A stretch of 21,213 nt of DNA from a virus. The stretch lies in the IMG/VR virus record IMGVR_UViG_3300024255_000193, positions 1 through 21,213 of that record. One strand, written 5' to 3'. The notes beneath the pieces are model-generated. The model was not told the origin of the DNA and searched no databases. It saw nothing but the letters and a program-made list of their open reading frames with translations. Both the position numbers and the translations under genes were made by a program. Below, piece after piece: positions 188 through 20,215 of this stretch (within the stretch, counting starts at the first letter, position 1; each line of letters starts with the position of its first letter).

Positions 188-195
188 TATTTATC
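188..195 (-). promoter_or_regulatory. Late promoter box GATAAATA
   Basis: The minus strand reads GATAAATA, seven of eight bases of the T4 late consensus TATAAATA and a match to the NATAAATA form used by cyanomyoviruses. It overlaps the stop codon of the gp51-like ORF and would serve the gene starting at 174, leaving only a very short leader. Confidence 0.5.
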
Positions 196-385
196 TGTTA
201 GATTGGAGGGCTTGTTGCTTCTTCCTTAACTCTACTGTCTCTAGATATCCAGACAACATTGACATCATAACTTCAAATTCCCAGGGAATCATGTCATAAA
301 TTTCACTGATGCTCCAGTTATGATATTGTTTAAAGGCGAAGATACATTCATAGTGTTTAATGAGGCTTGTATGCATCATCGCCAC
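191..385 (-). CDS. 51: gp51-like baseplate hub assembly / tail assembly chaperone ORF
   Basis: A 64-residue ORF opening with GTG at 385-383, whose first base shares the last base of the gp26 TAG. It is acidic to neutral with a hydrophobic centre (DMIPWEFEVMMSMLSGYLET). Position after gp26 matches T4 gene 51, needed for hub assembly but not part of the virion. T4 gp51 is much longer, so the name rests on synteny. No good ribosome binding site serves the GTG or the two ATGs at 379 and 376: the nearest GGAGG is 19 or more bases away. The frame is exactly -1 relative to gp26, and a slippery heptamer sits on the gp26 stop, so it is probably made mainly as the C-terminal part of a gp26-gp51 fusion of about 304 residues. 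Confidence 0.6.
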   Translation of the reverse strand: MAMMHTSLIKHYECIFAFKQYHNWSISEIYDMIPWEFEVMMSMLSGYLETVELRKKQQALQSNR

Positions 386-1101
386 TAGAAAAAATCCCGT
401 AACCCCTCCAGTTTTACACTAAAGTTCTTGCCAGTTTTCTTATTCTTTAGTGTGATAGTGTGCGACAACTTGGGCATTGTCACAAAAAAATTAGTAATTT
501 TTTGGAATTGTGACTGAGTTAGTCCTTCCACCCATTCCAAAATCTCACTTTCAGACATGTCACTTCTGTTAAACACCTCTTCTCCAGACACAATTGATGA
601 TACACACTTAGAAATTATGTTGATACTACTTGTGAGGTTATTAAGATCATAACCTTCATTAAAGTATGTGATGTCAGGGTACTTCATCTTGACGCTCATC
701 TCTTCGTCAAGTTTTATGAGATCTGTGTGGTCGTCACTCCTCACCACTTTGATTTTATCGATATCTACTTCATGGTCCACAGTGTATGTGGAATCATTTG
801 GGTCAGTAATAACCAGACTAATCTTCTCACCTACTGATTTGGATCTTGCCTTTAGAAACAAGTACTCTACATCATATAATGCTAACTCCTCTACATTAAA
901 ATCATTGGGAGAAGACACACAATTCTGAATGATGTTAGTGATTGCATTAGTAATCTCGTCATTATCTTCTGTCTCTGCTGCAAGAATAAGAATCTTCTCT
1001 TCCTTAACACTGAAGGGTTGATACTTAATTTTTTGTCCAGTGGAGGGAATTGTTGTTGAATATTCAGGTCTTATAGATTTTGGCAGTGCCATAACAAACA
1101 T
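385..1101 (-). CDS. 26: gp26-like baseplate hub protein / tail assembly chaperone
   Basis: A 238-residue protein recognised as the cyanophage form of T4 gp26 (T4_baseplate family). The conserved family opening, MALPKSIRPEYSTTIPSTGQ, starts at the second ATG (1092), so the true start is probably 1092 rather than 1101; neither has a clear Shine-Dalgarno. The C-terminus reads KLEGLRDFF and ends in TAG. In T4, gp26 is required for building the central hub and is thought to act with gp51 as an assembly factor. Here the last three codons form a -1 slippery site that leads into the gp51-like ORF, the arrangement used by lambda gpG/gpGT. A late box (AATAAATA, 1115-1122) lies just upstream and overlaps the end of gp4. 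Confidence 0.8.
   Translation of the reverse strand: MFVMALPKSIRPEYSTTIPSTGQKIKYQPFSVKEEKILILAAETEDNDEITNAITNIIQNCVSSPNDFNVEELALYDVEYLFLKARSKSVGEKISLVITDPNDSTYTVDHEVDIDKIKVVRSDDHTDLIKLDEEMSVKMKYPDITYFNEGYDLNNLTSSINIISKCVSSIVSGEEVFNRSDMSESEILEWVEGLTQSQFQKITNFFVTMPKLSHTITLKNKKTGKNFSVKLEGLRDFF
388..409 (-). promoter_or_regulatory. Programmed -1 ribosomal frameshift signal (gp26 to gp51)
   Basis: On the minus strand the gp26 codons GAT TTT TTC TAG contain the heptamer T TTT TTC (394-388), a canonical X XXY YYZ slippery site in the correct phase, followed immediately by the TAG. A shift of -1 reads TTT TTT CTA GTG GCG ATG and enters the gp51-like frame. GGAGGGG (409-403) lies upstream with ten bases between the GGAGG core and the heptamer, the spacing at which an internal Shine-Dalgarno stimulates -1 shifting in E. 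coli dnaX. It is too far from any start codon to be an ordinary ribosome binding site. That shifting occurs is inference. Confidence 0.75.
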
Positions 1102-11192: not shown

Positions 11193-11338
11193 TGGTTTTT
11201 CTCCTGTGTTTTGTTGTAGATAATTACTCTGCCGTTGTCATGTGTGAACACAAGTTCATCATCGTGACCCCAACAGAGTTCTTCGTAGAGGGTATTCAGT
11301 CTCTCCATGTCTTCATAGAGAGCGTTAGGGTTGGTCAA
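11189..11338 (-). CDS. 49-aa conserved ORF between two hli genes
   Basis: A 49-residue ORF opening with TTG at 11338, which overlaps the TGA of the first hli gene. It reads TNPNALYEDMERLNTLYEEL then CWGHDDELVFTHDNGRVIIY and ends NKTQEKNQ. GGGA precedes the TTG by six bases. An internal ATG eleven codons in is the alternative start. The protein type occurs in other cyanophages, from memory, without known function. Its stop overlaps the second hli start, placing it firmly in the hli operon. Confidence 0.65.
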   Translation of the reverse strand: MTNPNALYEDMERLNTLYEELCWGHDDELVFTHDNGRVIIYNKTQEKNQ

Positions 11339-11544
11339 ATAATCCCAAAGATAAAGTTGCCAGTTGTTGCGTATGAAATAAGACCCGCAACGATACCCAA
11401 CATTGCCAGTCTACCGTTGAGTTTCTCTGCTCTTTCGTTATGGTTTTCGATGCCATAGCGCTCAAGGGCCTCGTCAGTCATGTACATTGAGGGCTCTTTA
11501 GCCCACATGTTTTGTTGGCCACGGTCGTTAGTTGTTACGGTCAT
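11335..11544 (-). CDS. hli: High-light inducible protein (Hli)
   Basis: A 69-residue Hli protein. The single membrane helix carries the full family motif: ERAEKLNGRLAMLGIVAGLI (residues about 38-57) with Glu, Asn, Arg and Met in place, followed by SYATTG. The N-terminal half is polar (MTVTTNDRGQQNMWAKEPSM). These proteins are produced during infection to sustain photosynthesis under excess light. A dedicated promoter lies 36 to 64 bases upstream and includes both a sigma70 -10 and a late-type box. The ATG has no clear Shine-Dalgarno. It heads a four-ORF operon ending at the terminator at 10939. Confidence 0.93.
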   Translation of the reverse strand: MTVTTNDRGQQNMWAKEPSMYMTDEALERYGIENHNERAEKLNGRLAMLGIVAGLISYATTGNFIFGII

Positions 11545-11919: not shown

Positions 11920-12115
11920 CGAATACTTTGCATTGTGGTGCACCAGGATGATCATCACAGAAGCTGTCAAGGAGCTTGTCCTTGTGTCGCTCTGTTGGAT
12001 CAGCAATCTTACCTTCTGTCAAGGGATCCCACTCGTCAGATGGGTGGGTTTCATTACAGTGGAGATCCACTTTGTACTTTGAGTACTTGTCGTTGGGGTC
12101 CTTTTGTACAGTCAT
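11912..12115 (-). CDS. cp12: CP12-like Calvin cycle regulator
   Basis: A 67-residue acidic protein whose C-terminus is diagnostic of CP12: CDDHPGAPQCKVFDD (residues 53-67), with the C-x8-C pair and the closing aromatic-DD that enters the GAPDH active site. CP12 shuts down GAPDH and phosphoribulokinase when oxidised; cyanophages carry it to divert carbon from the Calvin cycle to the pentose phosphate pathway and nucleotides. The N-terminal half is atypical: there is one cysteine (Cys20) rather than a pair, and the AWDxVEEL motif is reduced to SDEWDPLTEG. It may therefore bind GAPDH but regulate PRK differently. The start forms ATGA with the nusG stop. Confidence 0.82.
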   Translation of the reverse strand: MTVQKDPNDKYSKYKVDLHCNETHPSDEWDPLTEGKIADPTERHKDKLLDSFCDDHPGAPQCKVFDD

Positions 12116-12699
12116 TTTTTGTAAACCTGTTCCTTAGAAAACTCTGCTGGTACAACTCTACCAAACATGTCAAGTTGTCCAAGGATCTTATTGCCCTGGA
12201 CACTGACCACTTCACATTTGTATCCTGCAAATGGTCCATCAATAACATCTAAGATGTCACCAACTTCATAATCATTTAGCACATTTTGTTTAACCTCAAG
12301 GTGTGCATCGTCACACATATCAAACAGACGTTTGATTTCTCTTGGTTTGAATGCAATGGGTTTCTTTTGATTGCAATTCACAAAGAACTTGACGCCTGGT
12401 GTACCTAGGATAAGGTCAAAGGTTTCTGCTGGGAATGATTCTTTTATGTTCCCAAGTTCGTCCTCATCAAGGGAGGGTTTTACCTTTACCAAAAGGTAAC
12501 CAGACATGAGAAGTTTGTTCTTGACCTTACGTTTGCCTCCTTTGTCAACAACGAGTTCCTTCTTTTGTAGATACTCTACATCCAAAAGGTTCTTATCATT
12601 GAACAGTGCTCGTCTGGAAATAAGTTCTGCTTTGGTTGCCTTCTCCTTGTTCATGTTGATGGAGACTGCGTACCAGTGTTTGAAGTCTTGAAGTGACAT
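12112..12699 (-). CDS. nusG: NusG-type transcription elongation factor
   Basis: A 195-residue protein with the two-domain layout of NusG. The NGN domain runs from about residue 7 (FKHWYAVSINMNKEKATKAE) through LLMSGYLLVKVKP (63-75), the usual FPGYVLV strand, to TPGVKFF and KPIAFKPREIKRLF. The KOW domain is near 142-195: YEVGDILDVIDGPFAGYKCE and LDMFGRVVPAEFSKEQV match bacterial NusG closely. NusG binds the polymerase clamp and affects pausing, Rho termination and translation coupling. A phage copy could modify host polymerase for phage operons. The start ATG 12699 overlaps the preceding stop (TGATG). Confidence 0.88.
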   Translation of the reverse strand: MSLQDFKHWYAVSINMNKEKATKAELISRRALFNDKNLLDVEYLQKKELVVDKGGKRKVKNKLLMSGYLLVKVKPSLDEDELGNIKESFPAETFDLILGTPGVKFFVNCNQKKPIAFKPREIKRLFDMCDDAHLEVKQNVLNDYEVGDILDVIDGPFAGYKCEVVSVQGNKILGQLDMFGRVVPAEFSKEQVYKK

Positions 12700-12902
12700 C
12701 AATAAACATCCTCATAAAGGTAGTCGAGAACTGTATCATAATCTATATTGCTGTCACCTGTAAAGATAACACCAAGATTTTTATAATATTTGTAGATCTT
12801 CTTGTAAAGTTTTTGGTTGGTGCGAAGATCTGTGTCTCCAGAGATTGCCTCACGAATGGTTGGGAGGTGATCACTGAACTTGTGAAGTATTTGGGTTGCC
12901 AT
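12699..12902 (-). CDS. Hypothetical 67-aa protein
   Basis: A 67-residue protein from ATG 12902, which forms TAATG with the upstream stop. It is helical and tyrosine rich: MATQILHKFSDHLPTIREAI, then KLYKKIYKYYKNLGVIFTGD and a closing DYDTVLDYLYEDVY. No family is recognised. Its stop overlaps the nusG start, so the two are translationally coupled. Confidence 0.65.
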   Translation of the reverse strand: MATQILHKFSDHLPTIREAISGDTDLRTNQKLYKKIYKYYKNLGVIFTGDSNIDYDTVLDYLYEDVY

Positions 12903-13444
12903 TATTCTGTAGGTTGTACAAGCCAACCAGGTCGACGATCTGGTAGCTTAAGATAATTATAATAACACCACTCTTTGGTGTTAAGGTATTGACGATAAGC
13001 ATCTACATCACTGATGGATGTATCAAACTTAAGGTTCTCGGGCATTGCACGTGCAAATGAAGTTACATTGTAACAATCGAGGATGGACGACTGGGTCTTA
13101 TCCTGAAACAAGTCTACCACATCAAGGATAGAATCATTGAGACCATGAGCTGAATCATAACGTTCGTGAAACTCATCACATAAACCAACAGCGTGCATGA
13201 TTAACCATGCACAATTGCTGTAAGATTGTGCCACCCATTGAGTGCAGGGGTGGTTCTTGAAGGCACCCTTTGCTGTGAGGAAAGGGTTACCATCAACCTT
13301 CTTGACCTGACCAATGTCCCAGTAGTGACTGGAGAACACCACAGACAACATCTGTGCTGACTCTAGAATCATTTTGGTGACATGCCTATCAGGTAGAAGT
13401 TTTGCTGACGTGATGGGGTTGGTATCAACAACAAAGATGTTCAT
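12902..13444 (-). CDS. Conserved phage protein, HPC-W motif family
   Basis: A 180-residue protein of a family widespread in phages that I recognise by pattern but cannot name. The N-terminus MNIFVVDTNPITSAKLLPDR is followed by HVTKMILESAQMLSVVF; then come NHPCTQWVAQSYSNCAWL, SFARAMPENLK, a YRQYL helix and the end YLKLPDRRPGWL. The conserved D, H, K, E, Q, HPC and W positions suggest an enzyme, perhaps acting on nucleic acid; a pyrimidine-dimer glycosylase relation has crossed my mind but is not supported by visible motifs. It is the first gene after the promoter at 13468-13496 and leads the nusG-cp12 operon. Confidence 0.7.
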   Translation of the reverse strand: MNIFVVDTNPITSAKLLPDRHVTKMILESAQMLSVVFSSHYWDIGQVKKVDGNPFLTAKGAFKNHPCTQWVAQSYSNCAWLIMHAVGLCDEFHERYDSAHGLNDSILDVVDLFQDKTQSSILDCYNVTSFARAMPENLKFDTSISDVDAYRQYLNTKEWCYYNYLKLPDRRPGWLVQPTE

Positions 13445-19750: not shown

Positions 19751-20173
19751 TCAGATAACTTCAGGTTCTTCTTCAGGGAATGCCGCGATTCCGGGGATTC
19801 CTCCATCGTCAAAGGTGACGGTTGCTGTTCTAGCGTCAGCTGCTTCACTTACAATAGTGAGCGACCCAGAGCTTACTGCACAGGTTCCGGTAACTACCTC
19901 GTCTCCTGCTTCGTACTTCGACAGGTCCAGTCCAGTGTCATCTCCTTGAGTAACAAGAAGGAGACTACATTCTTTAGCAGCGTTGGTGAGAGTAGCAATA
20001 GCGACTGAGTCCTTTGCCTTATCTTGAGCTTTCAAGAGTTGTGGAAGACCAACACCAGATAGAATACCAACGATTGCAACAACAACCATCAGTTCAATCA
20101 AGGTGAATCCGTTTGCCTTCTTGCCTTTCTGTGAGAGACGACGGAGGAGAGTAGACTTGAGTGAGGTGTTCAT
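19751..20173 (-). CDS. Type IV pilin (prepilin with class III signal)
   Basis: A 140-residue prepilin. The start is ATG 20173 (MNTSLKSTLLRRLSQKGKKA), giving a 22-residue basic leader that ends in glycine. The prepilin peptidase site is G22/F23, followed by FTLIELMVVVAIVGILSGVG with the required glutamate at mature position 5. Cys69 and Cys98 probably make the pilin disulfide. The rest is short, with an acidic proline-rich end (FPEEEPEVI). Host pili of marine picocyanobacteria have pilins of this look, so the gene was probably acquired from the host. Processing would need the host peptidase PilD, as none is encoded here. The leader RNA can fold into a hairpin and no Shine-Dalgarno is seen. Confidence 0.88.
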   Translation of the reverse strand: MNTSLKSTLLRRLSQKGKKANGFTLIELMVVVAIVGILSGVGLPQLLKAQDKAKDSVAIATLTNAAKECSLLLVTQGDDTGLDLSKYEAGDEVVTGTCAVSSGSLTIVSEAADARTATVTFDDGGIPGIAAFPEEEPEVI

Positions 20174-20181
20174 TTTATTAT

Positions 20182-20215
20182 GATAGTGGAGGTTCTCCCT
20201 CCTTACCATACTATC
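20182..20215 (-). other. Hairpin in the pilin mRNA leader
   Basis: The minus strand has GATAGT, then GGAGG, loop GAGAA, CCTCC and ACTATC, with a seven-base bulge on one side. It has no T-tract, so it is unlikely to be a terminator. It lies nine bases before the pilin start and could affect translation or stability. The rest of the 100-base gap to the 93-aa gene shows no convincing promoter. Confidence 0.45.

Follow-up and report, generated by a model that had tools for sequence, protein, structure and literature searches.

Does the gp26/gp51 junction of a T4-like cyanophage carry a programmed -1 ribosomal frameshift, when a 2016 review describes frameshifting of the G-T type as widely conserved in long-tailed phages "except T4" (PMC5009743)? 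We examined this junction in a 21-kb contig from an uncultivated virus (21,213 nt, hereafter the window), whose best matches were cyanophages, and compared it with the corresponding junction of its relatives. On the comparative evidence below, it is very probably such a frameshift site.

The gp26/gp51 junction in the window

The features of the junction are collected in Table 1. The gp26 homologue, encoded on the minus strand, matched the Pfam T4_baseplate family (PF12322) with a score of 202.4 for a cut-off of 24.5, and comparison with homologues suggests that its true start is the ATG at position 1092 (MALP...). Its 3' end reads CTG GAG GGG TTA CGG GAT TTT TTC TAG and includes the heptamer T TTT TTC, which occurs nowhere else on this strand. 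A reading of this DNA made from the sequence alone had placed the heptamer in the gp26 frame, as we found, and one codon before the TAG, which needs correction since TTC abuts the stop. That reading's distance of ten bases to the upstream GGAGGGG is right when counted from the GGAGG core (10 nt), the spacing from GGAGGGG itself being 8 nt. Past the slip, the downstream ORF reads CTA GTG GCG ATG ATG (FFLVAMMH...) and is open exactly in the -1 frame, as had been claimed; the fusion expected from it, put earlier at about 304 residues, has a predicted length of 303. The extension matched the phrog_634 family, annotated as "baseplate hub assembly catalyst". We agree that this ORF lacks a ribosome-binding site of its own, as none could be placed for the GTG and ATG starts and the GGAGG core lies 19 nt upstream of the GTG. 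The window thus carries the elements of bacterial -1 frameshift signals, namely an in-frame X XXY YYZ heptamer with an open -1 ORF, a Shine-Dalgarno-like (SD-like) stimulator at about 10 nt upstream, and an RNA structure a few nucleotides 3' of the heptamer, the latter by prediction and covariation and in a register that varies between lineages.

Table 1. Coordinates of the junction features in the window and, in the last line, in three relatives
Feature	Position	Strand	Evidence
gp26 homologue, 0-frame ORF, 238 aa (short form, TAC-N)	385..1101	-	PF12322 E 9.9e-60; phrog_150 E 8.8e-66; alignment A1
SD-like GGAGGGG	403..409	-	sequence; anti-SD duplex energy in relatives
Slippery heptamer T TTT TTC (0-frame TTT TTC, -1 frame TTT TTT)	388..394	-	sequence; conserved in 159/161 clusters
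0-frame gp26 stop TAG, abutting the heptamer	385..387	-	sequence
gp51-like -1-frame extension (TAC-C), 65 codons past the slip, TAA at 193-191	191..388	-	phrog_634 E 3.8e-17
Predicted stimulatory hairpin, 16 bp, -16.3 kcal/mol, beginning 4 nt past the heptamer	335..383	-	folding; also in centroid structure
Next gene, beginning only (truncated at the contig end)	1..174	-	ORF list; weak phrog_7 match E 0.008
-1 extensions affected by annotation	L015 3268-3390; L106 4361-4480; L185 2741-3248		

Elsewhere on the minus strand of the window, we noted a pilin-like protein with an N-terminal methylation motif (19754-20209; Pfam N_methyl, E 7.8e-9), whose relatives in Synechococcus phages S-CAM7 and ACG-2014f carry the annotation "pilin"; a possible phage transcription factor matching NusG (E 8e-11) and KOW (12115-12702); a match to pyrimidine dimer DNA glycosylase (12905-13444; E 3.6e-11); and a short protein resembling high-light-inducible proteins (11338-11544), with a weak chlorophyll-binding match below cut-off (E 0.0093).

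Conservation of the proposed recoding signal among relatives

Relatives were gathered from viral contigs and named phages, one contig scan using search patterns located away from the junction, yielding a set of 161 non-redundant clusters (98% identity) in which gp51 adjoins gp26. The motif T TTT TT(C/T/G) was present in the gp26 frame in 159 of these 161 clusters, and in 65 of 66 clusters formed at 70% identity. RHph_I34 carries T TTT TTG. The same in-frame heptamer occurred only 9 times in the 36,225 other codon positions of the 161 homologous genes, which excludes chance as the origin of its near-constant presence at the gp26 3' end. In all complete relatives the -1 ORF was open for 56-77 codons, and the +1 frame was always closed within 29 codons. 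The heptamer, the -1 phase and the GGAGG-type element were all conserved across distant relatives, so the check that the sequence-only reading had proposed came out in its favour. Intact genes with a broken heptamer or altered phase, which it had held to speak against a frameshift, were not encountered in T4-like phages, a degenerate heptamer being found only in the more distant Ackermannviridae. We give little weight to the jumbo phage Phosso, where T TTT TTC follows a very distant gp26-like match (E 9). A search for relatives of SRB7757 among viral contigs found none.

We considered that the heptamer might be a by-product of a conserved x-Phe-Phe end combined with codon bias, with no recoding involved, since gp26 retains FF at its end and Phe is more often encoded by TTT (68%). 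This explanation, to which we accord next to no probability, is already contradicted by codon choice. The base preceding TTT was T in 159/159 sequences although the residue that it encodes varied (S, D, A, N, G or H), and a second conserved Phe-Phe pair of the same gene (n=92) was mostly encoded TTC TTT (56), followed by TTT TTT (20), TTC TTC (12) and TTT TTC (4). The invariant wobble T, set beside these control codons, points to selection at the nucleotide level. Given background codon use, the wobble T had a log10 P of -33.9 (159 sequences) or -12.8 (65 clusters at 70%), values that assume independent clusters and, with residual relatedness uncorrected, overstate significance. T4-type gp26 genes, which have no need to shift, also lack the heptamer (the T4 site is GAG TTC TTT).

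The upstream element was assessed by its predicted pairing with the 16S anti-SD sequence, whose energy in the region 6-20 nt upstream of the heptamer averaged -7.96 kcal/mol in relatives vs -1.55 kcal/mol in control windows, with 78% of sites vs 5% of controls reaching -6 or below. At this element, the Glu codon preceding the Gly was GAG rather than GAA at a ratio of 113:28, compared with 988:2509 elsewhere (P 1e-35, treating genomes as independent). Where the Glu codon was GAA, the following Gly was GGG in 17/28 cases, as if the SD-like element were being kept.

Extending the comparison downstream, we found a hairpin in most genomes, which the sequence-only reading had not seen. Segments of 60 nt starting 6 or 11 nt past the first base of the heptamer had mean folding z-scores of -1.66 and -1.82, compared with -0.06 to -0.35 at six other offsets, and closed hairpins of -8 kcal/mol or below were predicted downstream in 65% of genomes vs 6-21% at control positions. 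For the commonest stem, in a cyanophage clade of 109 sequences, 44 double-change cells were counted vs 26.5 from shuffles (0/500 shuffles), counts that ignore shared ancestry. Its register was fully paired in only part of the sequences (alignment A6), other lineages having other stems and some none; similar or alternative stems were present in L002, L006, L007, L009 and L019. We rejected a single hairpin common to all lineages, as RNAalifold found no shared fold for the 109 sequences and the register of one helix was bimodal.

These stimulators also bear on transcriptional slippage, by which altered mRNAs made on the T run would encode the fusion. The run comprises six T, or seven in some relatives, and slippage of this kind usually requires longer runs; T6C rather than a longer run is kept by 136/161 clusters, and an SD-like element and a hairpin at ribosomal spacing would be left unexplained. 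We regard this route as very improbable.

Another reading is that gp51 is translated separately, by termination-reinitiation at overlapping stop and start codons (TAGTGGCGATGATG), the frame relation following from this coupling. It would account for the GTG and ATG that come straight after the gp26 stop in the window, for the ATG at extension codon 3 in 89/159 relatives, and for the TAATG of some Ackermannviridae. However, ATG, GTG and TTG were all absent from the first 8 codons past the slip in 27/159 relatives, leaving them with no usable start near the junction. Among named phages, a nearby start is missing in phiWae14, in SRB7757 (which lacks any start), in Aeromonas phage 65, in BUCT-ZZ01 and in Kuttervirus PM10, and in several start-less relatives the first start lies about 18 codons in, within the conserved part. 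Where the ATG exists, its position is interchangeable with Leu codons among relatives, and the distance of the SD-like element suits the heptamer rather than the ATG. Coupling would moreover leave the invariant T TTT TTY and its wobble T unexplained, and L048 keeps the heptamer and the -1 frame though its 0-frame stop is 8 codons further downstream. Reinitiation as the sole explanation is thus improbable in our view. A free gp51-like piece could nonetheless also arise in this way next to the frameshift product, given the codon-3 ATG of relatives and the GTG/ATG of the window. We consider it rather unlikely, if somewhat less so, that one locus gives three proteins, adding to the short form and the fusion a free piece reinitiated at the ATG/GTG after the stop, in a balance varying among lineages that keep or lose that start.

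In a sample of annotated records, public cyanophage entries split the gp26/gp51 protein or truncate it, and none of the sample joins both pieces. The records of phiWae14 and 1.081.O begin the -1 extension at an internal start, which shortens it to about 40 aa, and that of PM10 leaves it unannotated.

Degenerate sites in Ackermannviridae and two genes in T-even phages

We rejected the idea that all PF12322 phages share the slippery site, because the junctions of Ackermannviridae are N NTT TTY-like. The -1 ORF is kept and the full heptamer absent in K469, K393, 207E48.1, VAP7 and PM10, among whose junctions are G CTT TTT, C GTT TTT and G ATT TTC; K469 and K393 are tentatively placed in this family by their likeness to 207E48.1. 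The combination of a -1 extension with a degenerate slippery site was observed in the Ackermannviridae-type loci L013, L100, L185, L187 and L188. Those members with TAATG could reinitiate, while PM10 has no start near the junction.

The T-even gp26 homologues, all without the heptamer, were handled as a contrast rather than as exceptions. T4 genes 26 and 51 are divergent. The T4 gp51 protein carries PF12322 at residues 1-201 and phrog_634 at residues 147-246 (E 1.2e-23), so that its C-terminus shares the latter family with the -1 ORF of the window. By these domain matches, T4 gp51 is a gp26 paralogue with a gp51-type tail, in the same architecture as the frameshift fusion; T4, which lacks the slippery site, thus makes the short and long forms from two genes. 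The T4-like arrangement was also found in phiAS4, Acinetobacter PhT2 and Krischvirus FL15, and RB43 has the long and short genes in tandem. Copy number followed the same division, with a single PF12322 gene in 14/14 phages of the frameshift or adjacent type and two in 5/5 T-even types (19/19 fit). A quick tree placed the 26 and 51 groups of T-even phages together on long branches, so a single duplication behind both is likely, though unproven. Among Straboviridae, the frameshift form is retained by KVP40-like phages and Aeromonas phage 65.

Proposed mechanism and relation to known systems

Under the frameshift reading, most ribosomes would read gp26 to its TAG and release TAC-N, the short protein of about 235-238 aa. 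A fraction would be held over T TTT TTC by the pairing of GGAGGGG behind and the hairpin ahead, and would slip back by one base as the two Phe tRNAs pair anew with UUU. These ribosomes would then enter the gp51 frame and yield TAC-NC, a minor fusion product about 300 aa long. In the window phage, slippage and its frequency are inferred.

Hub assembly chaperones as listed in PMC3004832 include T4 gp26 and gp51, the latter needed for assembly yet absent from the particle, which fits the model of lambda G and G-T. The parallel drawn by the sequence-only reading with the lambda proteins is therefore reasonable. By T4 homology and lambda analogy, both forms probably serve as tail-assembly chaperones for the tape measure and the hub, a role that we extend to the window phage on the same grounds. 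The gene following gp51 in relatives encodes a large protein (roughly 570-1170 aa), and weak tape-measure profile matches were obtained for the downstream proteins of ValKK3 (1.6e-6) and phiM7 (1.8e-5), as in the window (phrog_7, E 0.008), making the next gene a candidate tape measure. The AlphaFold model of gp26 (pLDDT 92.9) gave nothing significant in a fold search against the PDB, where the HK97 tail assembly chaperone 2OB9 had one of the two highest listed probabilities (0.33) with a non-significant E-value of 1.3; a sequence search of the PDB with the gp26 profile returned nothing.

The E. coli dnaX cassette consists of an SD-like element about 10 nt upstream, a heptamer, and a hairpin a few nucleotides downstream. 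The window shares this layout, with T TTT TTC where dnaX has A AAA AAG, in another gene and for another purpose. In lambda G/G-T, a low-level -1 shift likewise occurs near the 3' end of a chaperone gene and adds a minor C-terminal extension (PMC5009743); the heptamer differs, and the stimulators of the window (SD and hairpin) resemble those of dnaX. The tail-assembly chaperone frameshift of Vandenendeviridae and Andersonviridae also lies in a myophage TAC-N gene, where a poly-T slippery site precedes a conserved -1 ORF, and its motif GTTTTT, unlike the TTTTTTC of the window, resembles the degenerate Ackermannviridae site (PMC12846349).

The closest system is that of T4-like gp26/gp51, which involves the same protein family with short and long forms. 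In their 2022 abstract, Vladimirov, Gautam and Davidson reportedly describe frameshifting as conserved in several T4-like groups, T4 being said to use genes 26 and 51. According to two papers that cite this study (Virology 566:9-15, PMID 34826709), it identified the T4-like tail-assembly chaperone genes (PMC10885494, PMC12846349), including, for some T4-like phages, a short and a fused long form encoded by separate genes (PMC10885494), and poly-T slippery sites in T4-like TAC-N genes (PMC12846349). Going by these citing papers, the earlier supposition that such frameshifting was undescribed in T4-like phages has to be dropped; the kind is already known, and the window phage, an uncultivated cyanophage, is a well-supported further case. 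The SD-like element, the hairpin, the start-less cases and the copy-number test were measured in the present analysis.

The recoding signal (SD-like element, T6C and hairpin) is now defined well enough for testing in Synechococcus or E. coli. For frameshifted tail-chaperone genes, T4 has long been the exception named in the literature (PMC5009743). Our data provide clean comparative support for the 2022 solution, as relayed by the papers citing it: related phages frameshift, and the T-even group swapped the shift for a second gene.
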